Positions 319-18,790 of a DNA stretch of 22,488 nt are shown here, one piece after another; within the stretch, counting starts at the first letter, position 1, and every line of letters begins with the position of its first letter. This DNA is from a virus: positions 1-22,488 of IMG/VR virus record IMGVR_UViG_3300034418_000708, one strand, 5' to 3'. The notes beneath the pieces were generated by a model. The model worked only from the letters and a program-made list of their open reading frames with translations. It did no database searches and was not told the DNA's origin. The position numbers and the translations under genes are program-made.

Positions 319-1035
319 ATGATGAGTGAAAACATTACACTAGAGTTAAGCGTTCCAACCAGAATGTCTGATATTAAGCTGGAGCAGTATCAGAAGTATT
401 TAAAGGTTGTTGATGGTGTTGAACAAGAGAGTGAGGAGTCTGTAAACTTTGTCAATCTTAAGGCTCTTGAAATCTTTTGTGGATTGCAGCTAAAGGAGAG
501 TTATAAGCTCCCCTTGTCTGAGTTTGGTGGAATTATAGAAGACTTGTCTTCTGCATTGGCCGAGAAAACACCATTGGTGAAGAGGTTTTGGTTTAGAGGA
601 GACAATGGCAATGAAGTAGAGTTTGGTATGATACCAGACCTCAACAATATGTCATTTGGTGAGTATGTAGATTTAGATAAATATATTTCTGATTGGTCAA
701 ATATGCACAAGGCGATGGCTGTGTTATTTAGACCTATTACTAAAAAGAGAAAAGACCTATACGATATAGAAGAATATGAAGGGTCTGATAAGTATGCAGA
801 TTATATGAGGTATATGCCGCTTAATGTTGCATTGGGGGCTATTGTTTTTTTTTATCGTTTAGGGATGAAATTATCCAAACATACGATGGACTATTCGTTG
901 AATCACATGACGACAGACCAACGCTCTCAAGTAGAGAAGATGTTTTTGGAAAGAAGTGGGGTTGGTATCAATCAATTTATGCACTTGCTGGATCAGATGT
1001 CACAAGATTTGATCAAGTTACCAGGCAGCCATTAA
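319..1035 (+). CDS. Tail assembly chaperone, zero-frame product
   Basis: A 238-aa soluble, acidic protein with no membrane segment, first in the tail block and four genes upstream of the hub and tape measure genes. Tail assembly chaperones (lambda gpG/gpGT type) bind the tape measure protein and the tube subunits during tail building and are absent from the virion. The sequence supports this role because the gene carries a T-run slippery site (845-853) and an open -1 frame that continues to the next start codon, the hallmark of the G/GT arrangement. In the zero frame the ribosome reads past the site, adds about 60 residues and stops at 1033-1035. The start could be ATG 319 or the adjacent ATG 322. 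The zero-frame sequence itself I recognise only as a conserved unknown of Bacteroidota phages. Confidence 0.72.
   Translation: MMSENITLELSVPTRMSDIKLEQYQKYLKVVDGVEQESEESVNFVNLKALEIFCGLQLKESYKLPLSEFGGIIEDLSSALAEKTPLVKRFWFRGDNGNEVEFGMIPDLNNMSFGEYVDLDKYISDWSNMHKAMAVLFRPITKKRKDLYDIEEYEGSDKYADYMRYMPLNVALGAIVFFYRLGMKLSKHTMDYSLNHMTTDQRSQVEKMFLERSGVGINQFMHLLDQMSQDLIKLPGSH
846..852 (+). promoter_or_regulatory. Programmed -1 frameshift slippery site T_TTT_TTT
   Basis: A run of nine T (845-853) lies in frame as GTT TTT TTT TAT, so 846-852 is a perfect X_XXY_YYZ heptamer for -1 slippage. Four nt after it, GTTT (857-860) can pair with AAAC (877-880), and the inner GG/CC and AT/AT pairs give a bulged stem of about 8 bp, a plausible stimulator. 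The -1 frame has stops just upstream (786-791 and 822-824), so slippage must occur between 825 and the T run. Confidence 0.8.
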
Positions 1036-1115
1036 GAAAATGTTTTACATGGCTAATATTTGAAAAAGAAAAGAACGAGCTAGAAGCTAAAAGAATAAAA
1101 GATAGTTATAGATGA
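852..1115 (+). CDS. Tail assembly chaperone, -1 frameshift extension (GT-type)
   Basis: After -1 slippage at 846-852 the frame stays open for 87 codons to a TGA at 1113-1115, whose bases overlap the ATG of the next gene (ATGA at 1112-1115). The frame has no ATG, so it should be made only as a fusion: 178 shared residues plus 87, about 265 aa. The extension reads like a real protein. It contains a GWYQSIYALAG stretch, then a segment with FDQVTRQPLRKC, a hydrophobic TWLIF and a charged Lys/Glu helix near the end. This matches the pattern I remember for the C-termini of tail chaperone T domains in these phages. The T part normally contacts the tail tube protein. The open frame and stop placement are direct observations; the role is inferred. 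Confidence 0.78.
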   Translation, partial: LSFRDEIIQTYDGLFVESHDDRPTLSSREDVFGKKWGWYQSIYALAGSDVTRFDQVTRQPLRKCFTWLIFEKEKNELEAKRIKDSYR

Positions 1116-1579
1116 CAACAGTATATAATATATTAAGCACTATTAAGACATTCCTCAGAAACAATCCTATTGTTAATACTGTAACATTTGGTGATATTTC
1201 TGACATTGACCTTAATAAGACAACAATCTTTCCATTAACACACTTCTTCATTAATAATGTGACAGTAGTGGATCAGGCCATGCAGGTATCAATCAGTATG
1301 CTATTTACTGATGTTGTTGACCACTCTAAGAACTTTAACAATAATGACTTTGGAAACAGGGAGGATGACACCAATTTGATTGATGTGTACAATACGCAGC
1401 TTCAAATTGCTAATGCTCTTATACAAGACTTAAAAAGAGGAGACTTATATAGAGACAGGTATCAGCTAGAGGGCAATCCTGTATTGGAGCCATTTAATGA
1501 TAGATTTGAGGATGAGTTAGCTGGGTGGACAGTAGACTTGACTATAACTATTCCTAATGACAGTATCTCTGTATGTTAG
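1112..1579 (+). CDS. Putative tail terminator/completion protein
   Basis: A 155-aa protein starting on an ATGA overlap with the frameshifted chaperone product, so the two are probably translationally coupled. It has a helical N-terminus (residues 1-20) followed by a segment (about 22-65) rich in alternating hydrophobics, including a TVTFGDISDIDLNK stretch and a TIFPLTHFFI stretch. I remember these as a conserved small tail-associated family in flavobacterial phages. Size and position beside a gp10-like gene fit a tail terminator or tail completion protein, which caps the tube and joins it to the head. No catalytic or membrane features are visible. Confidence 0.5.
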   Translation: MTTVYNILSTIKTFLRNNPIVNTVTFGDISDIDLNKTTIFPLTHFFINNVTVVDQAMQVSISMLFTDVVDHSKNFNNNDFGNREDDTNLIDVYNTQLQIANALIQDLKRGDLYRDRYQLEGNPVLEPFNDRFEDELAGWTVDLTITIPNDSISVC

Positions 1580-5082: not shown

Positions 5083-5221
5083 ACATATAATTGACTTATT
5101 AAACTCCTCTGATTGGCTAATTGGAGATCCTGATATAGACTTTGCTAAGGGGTCAGATAAATTGCCATCTACATTCAAACAAACTAAACAATTAATAAAG
5201 AGAAGACATGGCAGTAAATAA
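5075..5221 (+). CDS. 48-aa hypothetical protein nested between hub and tape measure genes
   Basis: ATG 5075 to TAA 5219-5221, overlapping the end of the hub gene by 8 nt and the start of the tape measure gene by 14 nt. It exactly fills the 125-nt gap between them. The product is amphipathic, beginning with MLKHIIDLLNSSDWLIGDP and ending in a basic tail (KRRHGSK). Filling a gap with short overlaps at both ends is what compact phage operons do, so I take it as a real gene. The function is unknown; a small tail-assembly or virion component is the natural guess. Confidence 0.6.
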   Translation: MLKHIIDLLNSSDWLIGDPDIDFAKGSDKLPSTFKQTKQLIKRRHGSK

Positions 5222-6944
5222 ATATATAATTCAGCTTGTAGTAGAAACTGGCTCTGGTGAAACAAAAGTGAGAGGTGTATCTAAGGCGTTTCAGGACTTA
5301 GAAAAACAGTCAAAAAAGACAAATGATGCCATAAAAAAGAACAGCGATGCGTTAAAGGACAATAGCAGTTCCGCTGGTATTGCTGGAGCCGCAACTGCTG
5401 AATTTGGTCGTTTAATATCTGATGCTCCATTTGGGATTCAGGCTGTAACAAACAACTTGTCTCAATTAGGGTCTATGTTCGCCCTCTTGGTTGAAAAAAC
5501 TGGAGGAGCAAAGAAGGCTTTGGAGTCAATGACAGATGTTGTATTTAAGAATGGAAAAATAACTGCTACTGGATGGCTTATCGTATTCCAAGCTGTCATT
5601 GCGGCAATAGAATTTTTCGCTCAACGGGCAAGGTCTGCGGCTAAGGAAACGGCTGAGTTAGAAAAGGCTATAATTACATCGTCTTTAAGTTTAAAGCTTG
5701 CTAAACAGGCTTTAGATGATGAAAATACATCTTTGGAAGAAAAAAGGGGGATAATATCTGCTTTGTCAGAAAAGTATCCAGAATATAACTTTGAGTTGGA
5801 TGAAAACAATAGGTTGACTAGAGAGGGGAATGTTGCTATAGAAGAGCAAATAAAACAACTTGAAACACTAGCTAAAGCTAAAGCTCTTCAGAGTCAATTA
5901 GAAGATGCTTATTCAGAAAAAGCTCAGCTAACCGTAGAATTTCTTAAGACAAATAATAGTGCCTTTGGTGTGTTCAAGAACATACTTCTAGGCTCTGGAA
6001 CTGCTTTAGAGAAATTAAATGCAATAAGTGCTGCTGTTGCTACTGGAGGTTTTGCGACTGGCACACAGGCTGTACAGTTATTTGTTAATTCTCTTTCCGA
6101 TATAGATGATAGGATAAAGATTTTAGGTGAAACATTAGGAACAGAAGGCTTAATAAATATATTATTAGGAGAAGGCGGAGAAGAAGGAAGATCTGCTGCT
6201 GTAACAGACTTGGGTGACAAGTTTTTTGATGATGGATTTGCATTAAGTAAAAAATTTATAGAGGGCTTAATATATGGCCAAGAAGAAATAGAAGACCCCC
6301 TTTTAGGATATGTTAATTTAAGAAAGCTTGAAATAGAGGAGGAGATAATTGCTGAAAGCGATAGACAAAAGGAGCTTGCTGAAATAAAACAAGCAGAGCT
6401 TGAGGTATTTAAAGAGGTTGAACTTGCTAAGGTTGACATAATAGAAACAGCTTTTAGAACGATAGCTGATATATCTCAAAACAATAGATTTATTCAAGCT
6501 GCGGCTTTATTAGGAGAGTCTGCCGCAGGTATTGCTAAAGTTATAATTAATACCAAATCAGCTAATGCTGCATTAAGGCTACAACAAGCAGCGATAGCCA
6601 CATTAAACCCAGCAGCAGCAGCACTTATAGAGGCAAAAATAAAAGCTAATAATGTTTTTGCAGCAGCAGATATTGCAGCGAATATTGGGGCTACAGCAAC
6701 AGCATTGAGCAGACTTAAAGCTCCAATGGCGACTCCATCAACCCCATCTATAGGATCAGATGGTGGTGTTTCTATTCCAGTAGTAGCACCAGGTTTTAAT
6801 GTAGTTGGTGCTGCTGGACAGAATCAATTAGCTGCTGCTATTGCAGGACAATTCCAACAACCAGTCAAGGCTTATGTGGTTTCTTCTGATGTAACTACTG
6901 CACAAGAATTAGACAGAAGAATTGTACAAGGAGCGTCAATTTAA
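5208..6944 (+). CDS. Tail tape measure protein
   Basis: A 578-aa protein rich in Ala, Lys and Glu. The N-terminal 60 residues are a Lys/Asp/Ser-rich coil. A hydrophobic helix lies near residues 120-137 (WLIVFQAVIAAIEFFAQ), and long charged helices fill residues about 145-260 and 370-440. An Ala-rich helical region follows (about 450-500), then a Pro/Gly linker and a C-terminal segment around PVKAYVVSSDVTTAQELDRR. I recognise that last segment from tape measure proteins of Bacteroidota phages. The protein sets tail length and is threaded through the tube. At about 0.15 nm per residue it implies a fairly short tail, near 85-90 nm. It lies downstream of the chaperone genes, as expected. Confidence 0.78.
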   Translation: MAVNKYIIQLVVETGSGETKVRGVSKAFQDLEKQSKKTNDAIKKNSDALKDNSSSAGIAGAATAEFGRLISDAPFGIQAVTNNLSQLGSMFALLVEKTGGAKKALESMTDVVFKNGKITATGWLIVFQAVIAAIEFFAQRARSAAKETAELEKAIITSSLSLKLAKQALDDENTSLEEKRGIISALSEKYPEYNFELDENNRLTREGNVAIEEQIKQLETLAKAKALQSQLEDAYSEKAQLTVEFLKTNNSAFGVFKNILLGSGTALEKLNAISAAVATGGFATGTQAVQLFVNSLSDIDDRIKILGETLGTEGLINILLGEGGEEGRSAAVTDLGDKFFDDGFALSKKFIEGLIYGQEEIEDPLLGYVNLRKLEIEEEIIAESDRQKELAEIKQAELEVFKEVELAKVDIIETAFRTIADISQNNRFIQAAALLGESAAGIAKVIINTKSANAALRLQQAAIATLNPAAAALIEAKIKANNVFAAADIAANIGATATALSRLKAPMATPSTPSIGSDGGVSIPVVAPGFNVVGAAGQNQLAAAIAGQFQQPVKAYVVSSDVTTAQELDRRIVQGASI

Positions 6945-6974: not shown

Positions 6975-7907
6975 ATGGAAGTTTACGAGTTATTTATAGA
7001 AGAAGATAGCGAGTTCTCAGGAGTAGAAGCTATCTCAATCGTAGAAGAGCCTGCTATTGAAGAGGATTTTATAGCACTAAAAGCTCATAAGGTAGAAATG
7101 GCCGAAGTAAATGCTGAAAAACGCATCTTAATGGGGCCAGCATTGATACCAAACAAGAAAATCTATCGCAGAAATGGCGATAATGAGGAATACTACATCT
7201 TTTTTAGCGAAAGCACTGTTAAAAAGGCTTCTGAGCTGTTCTTAAGCAGAGGAAATCAGAATAATTCAACCTTAGAGCACGAATATCAGCTAAAAGGTAT
7301 GTCTGTAGTAGAATCTTGGATCGTAGAAGACGAAAAACAAGATAAATCTGCATTATACAACTTAAATATGCCTAAAGGCACCTGGATGGTGTCTGTAAAA
7401 GTAAACAATGAAGAAGTCTGGGAAGAATTTGTCAAAACTGGAAAGGTTAAAGGTTTTAGTATTGAGGGATACTTTAGTGATAATGCTGGAGGACCTAAAG
7501 AACAGGTGGAAGAGACGCTTTGCAAAGATTGCCTTGAGGAACTACAAGCGGAATATGCTCTTTTAGAGGCTGTAGCAGCTTTAGAAGAAGTAGAATTGGA
7601 GTCTTATGGAGGTTATCCTGAGTCTGCATCAAACAACGCTAAATTAGGTATCAAACGCAATAAAGAATTAGGCAATAAATGTGCAACTCAAGTAGGAAAG
7701 GTAAGAGCACAGCAGTTAGCTCGCAAAGAGAAGTTTACAGTTCCAACCTTGAAGAGAATCTACAGTTACCTAAGCAGGGCAGAAGAGTATTACGACCCAG
7801 CAAAGCCAGAGGCTTGCGGTACGATTAGTTATTTGCTATGGGGAGGTAAGTCTATGAAGAATTGGGTTGAGTCTAAGTTAAAAGGACTTGATGAGATAGA
7901 TGGCTAG
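6975..7907 (+). CDS. XkdF-like prohead serine protease with C-terminal accessory domain
   Basis: A 310-aa protein. Residues 48-168 match the pattern of the XkdF-like phage serine proteases: an ILMGPALIPNKKIYR strand, a helix at 78-90, His102 in a TLEHEYQLKG context, a VVESWIVED strand, MPKGTWM, and Ser162 in KGFSIEGYF. His102 and Ser162 are the likely catalytic pair for maturing the prohead. A Cys pair (CKDC, 183-186) and an acidic linker follow. Residues about 214-302 then form a separate helical domain ending in ISYLLWGGKSMKNW, which I know as a common C-terminal attachment in phage proteins. The scaffold-like and capsid genes follow three genes later, which supports the head-protease role. 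Confidence 0.72.
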   Translation: MEVYELFIEEDSEFSGVEAISIVEEPAIEEDFIALKAHKVEMAEVNAEKRILMGPALIPNKKIYRRNGDNEEYYIFFSESTVKKASELFLSRGNQNNSTLEHEYQLKGMSVVESWIVEDEKQDKSALYNLNMPKGTWMVSVKVNNEEVWEEFVKTGKVKGFSIEGYFSDNAGGPKEQVEETLCKDCLEELQAEYALLEAVAALEEVELESYGGYPESASNNAKLGIKRNKELGNKCATQVGKVRAQQLARKEKFTVPTLKRIYSYLSRAEEYYDPAKPEACGTISYLLWGGKSMKNWVESKLKGLDEIDG

Positions 7908-11325: not shown

Positions 11326-13083
11326 ATGGCAAAACCTAGAGTAAGATTAGTTAACACAAACGATCAGCCTAAGAGCTATAAGAATAGCGTCAGATTGGTC
11401 AACCTTAGTGGCTACCAGGCCCCAGAGATCATAGAGGATGATAGAAAAGACTGGGTATTATATAAGACTGGAGATGATGGTCAAGATTACTTTGAGTCTT
11501 TAATAGAGAAGTATCTTGGTAGTCCTACCAACGCCTGTTGTATCAATGGTATAACAGAGATGATCTATGGTAGAGGCTTAGATGCTCTTGACAGTGCTGA
11601 GAAGCCTGAGATGTATGCTAAGATGAAGCTGTTATTCAAGCCATCTTGTATGCGTAAAGTAGTTAATGACTACAAACTCTTGGGACAGGCTGCTGTACAA
11701 GTCATCTACAATAAGAACAAGACTGCTATTACAAAGGTGGTACACTTCCCAATGGAAACATTGAGAGCTGAGAAGGCTAAGAATGGCAAGTGTGAAGCAT
11801 ATTACTACCACCCTAAATGGGCAGAGCTTAAAACATCTGACAAGCCTAAGCGTATTCCTACATTTGGTAATGGAGGCAAGGGAGACTTACTAGAATTATA
11901 CATCTTTAAACCATATAAATCAGGATTCTATTACTATGCTCCTGTTGACTATAATGGCTGTCTTCAATATGCAGAGTTGGAAGAAGAAGTGGCAAACTAC
12001 CATATTAACAATATACAAAATGGCCTTCAGCCTTCGTTATTGGTTAATTTTAATAACGGTATTCCTAATGAAGAGACTCAGGAACTTATAGAGCGTAAGA
12101 TCTATGATAAGTTCTCTGGATCTTCTAATGCAGGTAAGTTCATACTTACCTTCAATGAGTCTGCTGAAGACCAAGCAAGCATTGAGGCCATTCACTTGCC
12201 CGATGCTCACGCACAATATCAATTCCTAGCTGATGAGTCAAGAGAGAAGATTATGCTTGGCCACAGAATTGTGTCTCCTATTCTTCTTGGTATTAAAGAC
12301 AATACTGGTTTTGGTAACAATGCTGAGGAGCTTCGTACAGCTTCTATCATCATGGATAATATGGTTATCAGACCATTCCAACAACAGCTCATTGAGGGCT
12401 TAGATGAGATATTGGCATTTAACAAAATAACTCTTCAATTATACTTCGTTACTCTTCAGCCTATTGAGTTTACAGAGCTTGACAATATCGCCACCAAGAT
12501 TAAGCGTGAAGAAGAGACTGGTGAGAAGCTTTCTAAGCAAGAGCCAGAGGAGCTTTCAGATTTGTCTGATGAAGAGTTTGAGGACCTGTTTGACCAACTA
12601 GAAGACTATGGAGAGGTTATCTCTGACGAGTGGGAATTAGTATCTGCTGAGAAAGTAGATCTAGCAGCGGTATCAGAAGACGATGCGAAGCCTTCTAAGA
12701 GCAGTTCTCAGGATAACAAGGGCTACAAGGTAAGATATGCTTATATGCCTGTTAGAAAGTCTCCTGATAGTCGTGAGTTCTGTGTTAGAATGGAAGCTTT
12801 AACAGATAAAGATATTGTATTCAGATTAGAGGACATTAATCAGATGTCATTTAGAGGAATCAATAATGAACTTGGACACAATAAACGCAACTACTCTTTA
12901 TTTAAGTACAAGGGAGGCAAGAACTGCCATCACTTCTGGGAGAAGAGAGTATATAAAAAGAAAACAAGAGTAAGCGAAGATGAGGCGTTAGCTGAAGGCT
13001 ATGTAGCACCAGTCAATCCAGATGAAGTGCCAATAGCACCAAAGGATATGCCAAATAGAGGAGCTTACCCAACAAGTAAATAA
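11326..13083 (+). CDS. Portal protein with an extra C-terminal domain
   Basis: A 585-aa protein. Residues about 35-390 follow the phage portal pattern. An N-terminal helical wing includes YFESLIEKYLGSPTNACCI, and strands around VVHFPMETLRAEK are followed by ITEMI-type and clip-region segments. A DESREKIMLGHRIVSPILLG helix and a GFGNNAEELRTASIIM helix occupy the crown/stem region. The portal forms the dodecameric DNA gate to which terminase and connector bind. An acidic linker (about 400-445) leads to a further domain, about 467-545, with REFC near residue 485 and NCHHFWEKRVY near 533. That domain resembles a piece often found in minor head (gp7/Mu F-like) proteins of Bacteroidota phages and could bind metal. 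Confidence 0.78.
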   Translation: MAKPRVRLVNTNDQPKSYKNSVRLVNLSGYQAPEIIEDDRKDWVLYKTGDDGQDYFESLIEKYLGSPTNACCINGITEMIYGRGLDALDSAEKPEMYAKMKLLFKPSCMRKVVNDYKLLGQAAVQVIYNKNKTAITKVVHFPMETLRAEKAKNGKCEAYYYHPKWAELKTSDKPKRIPTFGNGGKGDLLELYIFKPYKSGFYYYAPVDYNGCLQYAELEEEVANYHINNIQNGLQPSLLVNFNNGIPNEETQELIERKIYDKFSGSSNAGKFILTFNESAEDQASIEAIHLPDAHAQYQFLADESREKIMLGHRIVSPILLGIKDNTGFGNNAEELRTASIIMDNMVIRPFQQQLIEGLDEILAFNKITLQLYFVTLQPIEFTELDNIATKIKREEETGEKLSKQEPEELSDLSDEEFEDLFDQLEDYGEVISDEWELVSAEKVDLAAVSEDDAKPSKSSSQDNKGYKVRYAYMPVRKSPDSREFCVRMEALTDKDIVFRLEDINQMSFRGINNELGHNKRNYSLFKYKGGKNCHHFWEKRVYKKKTRVSEDEALAEGYVAPVNPDEVPIAPKDMPNRGAYPTSK

Positions 13084-13604: not shown

Positions 13605-13722
13605 AAGAGGAAAGTATAAACCAAAAGAGGAAAATGTACGCAAGCTATTTGCGTTCCTTAAAAAGATAGGCGAATTGGAAGATTCGTCTATTGTTGTATC
13701 CAATAGCAAAAAGAATAAGTAA
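13597..13722 (+). CDS. 41-aa hypothetical protein with TTG start
   Basis: A TTG at 13597 (8-nt overlap with the connector gene) opens a 41-codon frame ending in TAA 13720-13722, which overlaps the next ATG by one base (TAATG). The product is Lys-rich: KRGKYKPKEENVRKLFAFLK with a charged end (SKKNK). Fitting the gap with overlaps at both ends, as the other small genes here do, argues for a real gene. The lack of an ATG is a weakness, and another TTG at 13582 is possible. Function unknown. Confidence 0.5.
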   Translation: MDKRGKYKPKEENVRKLFAFLKKIGELEDSSIVVSNSKKNK

Positions 13723-16709
13723 TGGCAGTAGATGTATCTAAGATACCCAATAATAACAAGTTTGACCCTGTAAGAGAAGCAATACTTCAGTTGCAATCTG
13801 ATATTACTAGTGGGGTAGCAGGTGTTGGTAGTTTAAATGGTCTAACTGGTCTGTTAACTATAGCAGGGACAAGTCCTATAACTGTAACCCCATCAGGAAC
13901 TACAATCACCATCTCTCTTGACAGTACCATCTCAGGAGATAGAACATTCTCTGACAATGTAATTATCTCAGGAAATCTTACTGTAAATGGTACTACTACC
14001 ACAATAAGCACAACAGAGCTTACTGTTGAAGATAAGAACATCACTATAGCTTATGGCTCAGGAAGTGCCTTAGCAGCAGATGGTGGAGGGATTACTATTG
14101 ATGGAGCTAACGCCACAATGCTATATGCTTATTCTACCGATAGAATGGTGTTTAACAAACCAGTAGAATCTACCTATTTTCATGGCGATGGTTCAAACCT
14201 TACCAATATAACTGTTTCAGAAACAGACCCAATATATACTGGCTCTTCTTGGTACACTACAACAAATAATTCTACTAATTGGAATACTGCCTATACTTAT
14301 AGTCAAGTAGGACACTTGCCATTATCAGGAGGTACAGTAAGTGGAAATGTAGCCATTACAGGCAATCTTACAGTGGACACAAATACGCTGTTTGTAGATG
14401 CAACAAATAACAGGGTTGGTATCTTAACAAATACGCCTGATTATGGTCTTGATGTCCAGACAACACTAAGAATGCGAGATGTAGGTCAGATTTTATCATT
14501 TGATACTACTGGTGCAGCAAATTCTGTTCAACTATATACTGCTAATAGCTATGAATTTTTGATTGTCAATTCAAGAGGAAACACTTCAAGATTAACTCTT
14601 GGCAATAGTAATATATCTCTTGGAACTTATGGAACTAGCATTTTACACTTAGACACTGCCAATAATAGGGTTGGGATAAATACAGTTGCTCCATCTTACA
14701 CATTAGATGTCAATGGCTCTGCTGCATTTAGAAACACAAGCTATGTTATTAATTCAGCGTTGTATAGCTATGATACAACTTCAGGAACATATCTTCAGTT
14801 TTATAACAATGGCGTAAGTGGTTATTTGACTATGCTTGGGGCACAGGATTTATTGCTTCAAACAAATGGTGGTAATCTAGCAGTTGGGACTACTTCTGCA
14901 ACTCAAAAATTAGAGGTCAATGGTGTTGGTTTATTTACAGGAACTTCTTTAGCAGGCAATACACAAACAGGTGTTTATATTTACGACCAAAACATTTATT
15001 CGTTAGCTGGAAGTAGTGCTAGACCATTGAATATATTTGGTCAAACTCTTAGCTTCTATACAGGGACGAGTTATAGTCAAAGCGTTATTATAGACGCAGA
15101 TGGACAGGTTGGTATCAATGAGGCAAACCCTTCTGCCTTATTACACATAACAAATAATGAAACAAGTGATTTAACTCATTTATTGCTTGAGAATACTGAC
15201 GCTGGCACTTCACAAGCCCCAAACCTTGCGTTATATAGAAATTCATCATCGCCAGCAGCAAATGATGCTTTAGGAAATATTTTGTTCTATGGCAAAAACG
15301 CTTCAGGAACACAAGTACCATACGCTGAAATATTTAGTGAAATAGTAGATACAACTGCTGGCTCTCACGATGGAAGGCTTGTTTTCTACAACTACATAAA
15401 TGGAAGTGGTGATTACTCAATGGTTCTAAGTGGAAGAAACTTAGGCATTGGTTTATCTTCGCCAGCTACTAATTTGCATGTCAGAAATACAGGTGCTACT
15501 GCCTTAAAACTTGAGAACTTTGGTACTGCTAATTGGATGCTGGGCGTACCTTCAGGACAAACCTATTTAGCATTTGATAATGTGAACAATGATTTGTCTG
15601 CACCAAAAGTTGTAATCAATTCTTCAGGGTATCTTGGACTAAATACAACTTCTCCATCATACCTTCTTGATGTGAATGGTAGTGCTGCTTTTAGGTCTTC
15701 TAGTTACGCTTTAGATTCAACTTTTTATGGGTATAGCAGTACTGGTGGCGTTTATTTAGGATTATATGGTGGAACTGATGGTAGGGGTTATTTAGGTACG
15801 ACTGCTAGTGAAGATTTGGTTTTAAATTCAACAGGTGGAAATGTTGGTATAGGAACTACGCCAAGCACTAATCTTGAGGTCTATGATAGTGCAAACCCAA
15901 CGCTTAGATTACAAACAACTGGAACAACAAATCAAGGTAGTATTGAATTTGGCGATTCAGCAGATGCTGATGTAGGAATCATAAATTATGTTCACGATAC
16001 GAACAAGATGCGATTCTTTACTAACGCATCTGAAAAAGTGGTGATTACTGGAGATGGATTTGTTGGTGTTGGCGTTCAGAACCCTTCTTATCAATTAGAA
16101 GTAACTAGAAGTGCTTCTAACTTATTAGCAAGCTTTTATAGCACTAGCAATGTAAGCTCATTTGTAAATATTGGAACAAGCACAAACACTTTATTCGCCA
16201 ATATAGGATTGACTTCTGATAATGGTACTGCTCAAATTTGGAACGCTGGTTCTACTTATGTAAGTTATGGTGGTGCTAATTCATTAAACTTCTACGCCCC
16301 TTTAGGGGTTAGTATGGCTTGGCATCCAAATGGTGCTCAAAATCAAATGGTGCTTTCAACAAGTGGTACATTGAGCGTTGTTGGTGATATTGTTGGTTAT
16401 TCTAGTTCAGACAAGGCTTTAAAAGAGAATATTAAGCCGATAGAAGATGCACTAGATAAGATAAGTAAGATAAGTGGCTATGAGTTTGATTGGAACGATA
16501 AACAAGATGTTTACGAAGGACACGATGTAGGGGTAATAGCACAAGAGATTGAAGATGTACTTCCTGAAGTTGTAACGACTAGAGATAATGGATACAAGGC
16601 AGTTAAGTATGAAAAACTAGCCCCACTTCTTATTCAGGCGATTAAAGAGCAGCAAGAACTCATTGAGGACTTGAAGGCTGAAATAAAACACATTAAAGGT
16701 CTGTTCTAA
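13722..16709 (+). CDS. Tail fibre with C-terminal S74 intramolecular chaperone
   Basis: A 995-aa protein and the longest gene in the window. Residues 1-165 form an attachment region (a helical start, then Thr/Ser/Gly-rich strands and a FHGDGSNLTNI motif at about 152). Residues about 228-800 hold at least eight copies of a motif of the form x-G-x-V-G-I-x-T-x-x-P-x-x-x-L-x-V (starts near 228, 314, 383, 460, 571, 634, 704 and 777), typical of trimeric beta fibres. Residues 896-995 are a peptidase S74 domain: SDKALKENI, then YEFDWND, GVIAQEIEDVLPEVV and a C-terminal coiled coil. S74 domains trimerise the fibre and then cut themselves off, here expected just before Ser896. It probably binds the host surface. 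Confidence 0.85.
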   Translation: MAVDVSKIPNNNKFDPVREAILQLQSDITSGVAGVGSLNGLTGLLTIAGTSPITVTPSGTTITISLDSTISGDRTFSDNVIISGNLTVNGTTTTISTTELTVEDKNITIAYGSGSALAADGGGITIDGANATMLYAYSTDRMVFNKPVESTYFHGDGSNLTNITVSETDPIYTGSSWYTTTNNSTNWNTAYTYSQVGHLPLSGGTVSGNVAITGNLTVDTNTLFVDATNNRVGILTNTPDYGLDVQTTLRMRDVGQILSFDTTGAANSVQLYTANSYEFLIVNSRGNTSRLTLGNSNISLGTYGTSILHLDTANNRVGINTVAPSYTLDVNGSAAFRNTSYVINSALYSYDTTSGTYLQFYNNGVSGYLTMLGAQDLLLQTNGGNLAVGTTSATQKLEVNGVGLFTGTSLAGNTQTGVYIYDQNIYSLAGSSARPLNIFGQTLSFYTGTSYSQSVIIDADGQVGINEANPSALLHITNNETSDLTHLLLENTDAGTSQAPNLALYRNSSSPAANDALGNILFYGKNASGTQVPYAEIFSEIVDTTAGSHDGRLVFYNYINGSGDYSMVLSGRNLGIGLSSPATNLHVRNTGATALKLENFGTANWMLGVPSGQTYLAFDNVNNDLSAPKVVINSSGYLGLNTTSPSYLLDVNGSAAFRSSSYALDSTFYGYSSTGGVYLGLYGGTDGRGYLGTTASEDLVLNSTGGNVGIGTTPSTNLEVYDSANPTLRLQTTGTTNQGSIEFGDSADADVGIINYVHDTNKMRFFTNASEKVVITGDGFVGVGVQNPSYQLEVTRSASNLLASFYSTSNVSSFVNIGTSTNTLFANIGLTSDNGTAQIWNAGSTYVSYGGANSLNFYAPLGVSMAWHPNGAQNQMVLSTSGTLSVVGDIVGYSSSDKALKENIKPIEDALDKISKISGYEFDWNDKQDVYEGHDVGVIAQEIEDVLPEVVTTRDNGYKAVKYEKLAPLLIQAIKEQQELIEDLKAEIKHIKGLF

Positions 16710-18529: not shown

Positions 18530-18790
18530 ATGAGAGTATTTATCCTAATTGCAGCGTTATTGCTTTCTAGCTGTTCAAGCAGCAGGGTGATTAGTCAGAA
18601 GGACATTACCAAAGAAAGTAGTTGGCTAGAGTCAAGTGAGGATAACCCAATCATCAATGTCATTCAAAAGCATTATGCTAACAATGATGTGGAGGTTATC
18701 ATTAAAAAAAAACTGACTACTGACTATGTAAAGATAATGTTAAGCAAGCAGGGTAGAACTATATCTAAAACCACAATCAAGAACCAATGA
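18530..18790 (+). CDS. Lipoprotein, putative outer-membrane spanin
   Basis: An 86-aa protein with a signal peptide (MRVFILIAALLL) and a lipobox LSSC, so Cys15 should be lipidated. The mature part is about 70 residues, begins with a Ser-rich stretch, and contains a helix around NPIINVIQKHYAN and a strand-rich Lys-rich end. Its ATG follows the preceding stop directly, and its own stop overlaps the next start (ATGA at 18787-18790). Gene order (TM coiled-coil protein, lipoprotein, holin candidate, endolysin) suggests an outer-membrane spanin that pairs with the preceding protein to fuse the membranes. The sequence itself does not match a spanin family I know. Confidence 0.5.
   Translation: MRVFILIAALLLSSCSSSRVISQKDITKESSWLESSEDNPIINVIQKHYANNDVEVIIKKKLTTDYVKIMLSKQGRTISKTTIKNQ

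Follow-up and report, generated by a model that had tools for sequence, protein, structure and literature searches.

Gene organization of the locus

The window analyzed here is the whole 22,488-nt viral record IMGVR_UViG_3300034418_000708. Close to its beginning, on the plus strand, lies an open reading frame (319..1035) that encodes a 238-aa protein, referred to here as the G-like product. This gene contains a run of nine T residues (845..853, plus strand), read in the zero frame as GTT TTT TTT TAT, within which an in-phase heptamer T_TTT_TTT occupies positions 846-852. The −1 frame is open from position 825 to a TGA stop at 1113-1115 and contains no ATG. Counted from position 852, it translates into 87 aa plus the stop (852..1115, plus strand), and this extension would form a T-like domain; a fusion at the T run is predicted to comprise 178 + 87 = 265 aa. 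The zero and −1 frames share the segment 852..1035 of the plus strand. In the third frame, a TAG stop (860..862, plus strand) lies two codons past the T run. The stop of the extension overlaps the ATG of the next gene as ATGA (1112-1115), and this next gene (1112..1579, plus strand) encodes a 155-aa protein assigned to PHROG 30964, a family of unknown function. The coordinates that the initial annotation gave for the gene, the T run, the heptamer, the −1 frame and the ATGA overlap were all correct when the sequence was read again.

The zero-frame protein matches PHROG 32199 (function unknown; E 8.8e-16). Its AlphaFold model has a mean pLDDT of 85.9, with residues 213-238 mostly of low confidence, while the extension is modeled as four helices with a mean pLDDT of 75.4. 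Ahead of the gene, a 61-aa open reading frame (47-232) has recognizable relatives upstream of the corresponding gene in four related loci (L003, L005, L006 and L048), and it may represent a real small gene. Elsewhere in the window, a nine-A run (18704-18712) is found in the open reading frame 18530-18790, where it encodes Lys-Lys-Lys, and this is another possible slip site.

Relatives of the gene

Hundreds of phages related to those of marine Bacteroidota carry the gene. In the IMG/VR database, at least 580 relatives were found for the zero-frame part and at least 580 for the extension. From viral contigs, bacterial contigs and two cultured Nonlabens phages, 359 distinct junctions between the two frames were collected in scans that used differing queries, some of them the extension alone. 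The search patterns of two scans included the Phe-Phe motif, which is a possible source of bias; scans whose patterns lacked this motif gave the same result. The only cultured phages matching both parts in tblastn searches were Nonlabens phages P12024S and P12024L, with 27-31% identity. Four loci lie on bacterial contigs labelled Bacteroidetes, Winogradskyella or Flavobacteriaceae. When 395 genomes from the phylum of a Bacteroidetes bin were surveyed, the sole match was the genome used as the center of the survey.

Two further groups of sequences came to light. Two BFVD entries, A0A6J5N0W0 (267 aa) and A0A516L611 (258 aa), each match both the N-terminal part and the extension and, judging by these entries, relatives fused in a single frame may exist. 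Protein AGN89393 of Flavobacterium phage 6H (191 aa; L456 10352-10927) is a remote fold match to the gene, and past its stop, in the vicinity of a T6 run, sequence that looks conserved carries on in different frames. This phage was dropped as a remote relative, since the fold match is weak and the frames are not cleanly readable.

Conservation of the −1 extension

The extension is intact in all 288 loci that contain enough DNA to judge it. Its junction with the next gene, evaluated in 237 distinct relatives, takes the form ATGA in 134 and TAATG in 52. The −1 frame might be regarded as a gene in its own right, with an independent start, as in the annotation of Nonlabens phage P12024S, which lists two genes, _38 and _39. 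This is contradicted by the lack of any ATG in the first 20 codons around the junction in 283 of 292 loci, and by homology to the extension that starts at the T run in nearly all matches. It might also be a dead remnant left by a frameshift mutation or a sequencing error, against which stands the recurrence of the same junction, with both frames conserved, in hundreds of independent assemblies. We regard a separate gene or a dead remnant as scarcely credible.

The overlap itself was examined in two ways. When the zero-frame amino acids were fixed and the codons redrawn, an average of only 0.2% of draws left the −1 frame open throughout the overlap; when the extension protein was fixed instead, the zero frame attained its observed open length in 8.9% of draws. 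Differences between close relatives were then counted at codon positions 1/2/3. They amount to 1231/983/4233 in the region read in the zero frame only and to 678/438/1632 in the region read as extension only. In the overlap, the counts by extension position are 2751/1479/2966, where extension position 1 corresponds to zero-frame position 3. Both frames are therefore under constraint over about 60 codons, because in the overlap, but not in the flanking regions, the differences are shared out between the third positions of the two frames. A value of log10 P = −64 from this analysis assumes independent relatives and was set aside in favor of tree-based counts.

The tail of the zero frame past the T run is under the weaker of the two constraints: in the Nonlabens phages the zero frame stops 25 codons past the run, and the last part of the tail is modeled with low confidence. 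That this tail is open merely by chance is nevertheless unlikely in view of the 8.9% of redraws and of substitutions constrained in both frames. The observation as a whole is far from chance, and comparative sequence analysis provides good support for two products of 238 and 265 aa. The initial annotation had predicted proteins of 238 and about 265 aa, with entry into the −1 frame at the T run, and had proposed asking whether relatives conserve the run and the −1 protein; they conserve both.

Conservation of the T run as a nucleotide sequence

Among the 359 distinct junctions, a run of 9 T is the commonest (302 junctions), followed by 10 T (55) and 12 T (2), and a run shorter than nine never occurs. 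The flanking codons vary: Val, Leu, Ile or Phe is encoded before the run (44 changes on the tree) and Tyr, Trp, Leu, Phe or Ser after it (30 changes), and at neither side does any change bring the run below nine. Each of the first three codons of the run ends in T in every one of 354 relatives, and all 354 carry the in-phase TTTTTTT heptamer. For comparison, five conserved Phe columns that served as controls contain 53-139 TTC codons each (17-41%), with 22-63 changes on the tree.

Particularly informative is the base that closes the second Phe codon of the run. In the 292 sequences whose fourth codon is TAY or TGG, replacement of T by C at this base is synonymous in both frames, being TTT to TTC (Phe) in the zero frame and TTA/TTG to CTA/CTG (Leu) in the extension. 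It would also retain a slippery sequence, U_UUU_UUC. Although this silent change is possible, C is found at the last base of the heptamer in none of the 354 relatives. The tree shows 64 and 41 exchanges between T and C at matched Leu sites within the overlap. Lineages with TTC carry an extra Phe codon ahead of it, so that their run amounts to 10. The run is thus selected as nucleotides, and the selected element is at least nine T, which is more than the seven nucleotides of a ribosomal heptamer. The outermost T residues can, however, be explained by hydrophobic or aromatic residues in both frames, which weakens the case for a transcriptional element.

A third-frame stop two codons past the run is present in 341 of 354 relatives, so that messages shifted the other way would terminate at once. 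It may simply result from the codons for Phe-Arg and Leu-Gly in the two proteins.

No run of nine or more T occurs downstream of the junction in any relative. The other such runs in related loci are all upstream, mostly 497-610 nt before the junction and just ahead of the gene start; they often follow short GC-rich stretches and resemble terminators ahead of a tail operon.

Homopolymers are prone to replication slippage (PMC3711429), and the run might accordingly lengthen or shorten by one base in some phages of a population, so that phase variation at the DNA level would fuse the two frames in their genomes. Such a mechanism is very unlikely here: the extension is in frame with the upstream gene in 0 of 359 distinct relatives, and every change in run length has left the frames separate.

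RNA structure around the T run

Ribosomal −1 frameshifting is usually, though not strictly, dependent on a stimulator, which may be an RNA structure or a Shine-Dalgarno-like sequence. The initial annotation had proposed a bulged stem at positions 857-880, just after the heptamer, and this element did not withstand analysis. Its folding energy is −4.1 kcal/mol (z −1.45), the fold of the segment 854-930 has a z of −0.45, and RNAalifold recovered 0 consensus pairs after the T run across 26 relatives. Folding of the sequence after the run in 60 relatives gave a mean z of about −0.2, the same as in shuffled sequences and control stretches. A downstream stem acting as frameshift stimulator was thus rejected, being weak in the window and not conserved.

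A hairpin just before the run, of the kind that would assist slippage in the manner of a terminator, was considered as well. The window alone can form one (−9.7 kcal/mol), but 71 relatives yielded no signal (mean z 0.17 and −0.04), and this candidate was also rejected. As for the other usual stimulator, ribosomes of Bacteroidota fail to recognize Shine-Dalgarno sequences (PMC9976891); such pairing would then be unavailable to stimulate frameshifting in these hosts.

Proposed mechanism of synthesis of the long form

We propose that in most messages the nine-T tract is read through in the zero frame, giving the 238-aa protein. In a minority of messages, RNA polymerase would slip on the tract and insert one extra U, so that a run of nine in the DNA becomes a run of ten in the message. 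Ordinary translation of this U10 message would proceed through Val-Phe-Phe-Leu-Ser-Phe-Arg and continue in the −1 frame, producing the 265-aa protein; the two proteins would share their first 178 residues. The ratio of the two products, with the long form in the minority, is likewise inferred.

Several lines of evidence favor transcriptional slippage. All 354 relatives end the heptamer in T although C would be slippery and, in 292 of them, silent in both frames, the run is never shorter than nine in 359 junctions, and neither side of it carries a conserved structure. Sites of transcriptional slippage are A or T homopolymers of about 8-9 or more that are selected as nucleotides, and 9-12 T were found in all 359 junctions. 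Slippage on a T run has been described for Shigella mxiE, where more than eight T residues are involved (PMC3711429; PMC1088944), and the RNA polymerase of Escherichia coli slips on seven or more T, with T preferred over A (PMC6260861).

One inserted U yields exactly the protein that ribosomal slippage would. A programmed ribosomal −1 frameshift on U_UUU_UUU, which would yield an identical 265-aa protein with the message left unedited, therefore has to be weighed. All 354 relatives carry the in-phase heptamer in the X_XXY_YYZ arrangement, nine T are, by simple reasoning, the fewest that guarantee an in-phase heptamer whatever the phase, and ribosomal frameshifting has its standard example in the G/GT genes of phages (PMC5009743). 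In E. coli, U_UUU_UUY is among the efficient motifs, the efficient class including H_HH.U_UU.Y, with the tetramer U_UU.C exceeding U_UU.U (PMC4066793). On the other hand, seven T would be enough for the ribosome, yet fewer than nine were never found. An invariant last base of the heptamer is not predicted either, as C should be tolerated, although the UUU/UUC rules behind this argument are those of E. coli and may differ in Bacteroidota. Moreover, no stimulatory RNA structure was found, and Bacteroidota ribosomes make no use of Shine-Dalgarno pairing (PMC9976891).

Taken together, ribosomal frameshifting as the source of the long form is possible but rather doubtful. That one gene specifies two proteins, the long one arising mainly by transcriptional slippage on the T run, is on balance the probable reading of the sequence evidence. 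Ribosomes could also slip on the ever-present in-phase U_UUU_UUU, which argues against a purely transcriptional account. The programmed −1 shift of the initial annotation therefore holds as regards a second product, while its ribosomal nature has become less probable, since the invariant run of nine or more T includes a base that the heptamer leaves free. The chances seem evenly balanced that a large family of phages related to Bacteroidota phages relies on programmed transcriptional slippage at a T9-T12 run, and not on ribosomal frameshifting, to make its G/GT-like pair.

Predicted role in tail assembly

Genes for chaperones with two products are very common in long-tailed phages, where the longer form is a textbook example of ribosomal frameshifting. 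The gene described here is on the same strand and in the same block as a candidate tape-measure gene (5208..6944, plus strand; 578 aa), from which it is separated by four genes. The candidate itself has partial tblastn matches to a structural protein of Cellulophaga phage phi10:1 (2e-10) and to a Porphyromonas phage 'tail tape measure' protein (8e-4). Other neighbors are structural as well, with genes for a protease (6975-7907; Peptidase_S78_2), a portal (11326-13083) and an S74-type tail fiber (13722-16709) further along the window.

Pfam and NCBIfam searches for known chaperone families gave no match, and no solved structure was matched by Foldseek in the PDB. Weak matches to PHROG 166 ('tail protein') were obtained in 11 of 80 members, with a best E of 0.0024. 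Foldseek otherwise returned mainly uncharacterized phage proteins, together with a weak match to a 'Tail assembly chaperone' (probability 0.54). The longer product of gpG/gpGT chaperones enters the −1 frame, and the same was found here on comparative evidence. As read from the sequence, the anatomy of the gene is gpG/gpGT-like, as originally suggested, and a role as tail assembly chaperone is likely by analogy. Of the initial assignment to a tail assembly chaperone gene, then, the layout stands, whereas no known family could be matched and the gene lies four genes before the tape-measure candidate. If the analogy with λ gpG/gpGT holds, the tape measure protein would be coated by the short form, while the long form, present in small amounts, would bring in the tail-tube protein.

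Comparison with known systems

Like λ gpG/gpGT, which relies on a ribosomal −1 frameshift, the gene described here has two products with a common N-terminal part, the longer of which enters the −1 frame and gains a C-terminal domain; it is likewise located in a structural gene block. No sequence or solved-fold match between the two was found. The overlap here spans about 60 codons, whereas λ slips near the end of G; nine or more T residues take the place of the varied heptamer of gpG/gpGT; and gpG/gpGT genes usually lie just upstream of the tape measure gene, in contrast to the four intervening genes seen here.

In Shigella flexneri mxiE, two overlapping frames are likewise joined by one inserted U at a T run, and the longer protein is the slipped product. 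That gene encodes a regulator of a bacterial secretion system, whereas ours belongs to a phage and, unlike in mxiE, its zero-frame product is also long and conserved. Another parallel is dnaX, for which Thermus thermophilus uses transcriptional slippage on A9, while E. coli does the same job by ribosomal frameshifting. The Thermus gene resembles ours in having a nine-base homopolymer within the coding region and a ratio of two products, but its run is of A rather than T and its slipped product is the shorter one.

Genes 38 and 39 of Nonlabens phages P12024S and P12024L are the direct homologue, with the same T9 (CTT TTT TTT TAT) and the same −1 extension. In the public annotation they appear as two hypothetical genes that immediately follow the terminase gene. 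In P12024S (L001 3001-3695), annotated gene 39 begins inside the extension, at the zero-frame stop.

Biological significance

Among the titles and abstracts covered in open-access searches on phage tail chaperones made by transcriptional slippage and on frameshifting in Flavobacterium phages, there was none of this kind, although an earlier description is possible. If our reading is true, this would be, within that same part of the literature, the first phage tail-assembly pair in which the step has moved from the ribosome to the polymerase. Such a move would possibly be due to Bacteroidota ribosomes working without Shine-Dalgarno stimulation. The analysis also corrects the annotation of the only cultured relatives found, where the gene is split into two hypothetical proteins, and it points to an 87-residue domain that would be missed in metagenomic relatives. 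A family with a slip site of the transcriptional type would show the same control of product ratio exerted at another level of gene expression.
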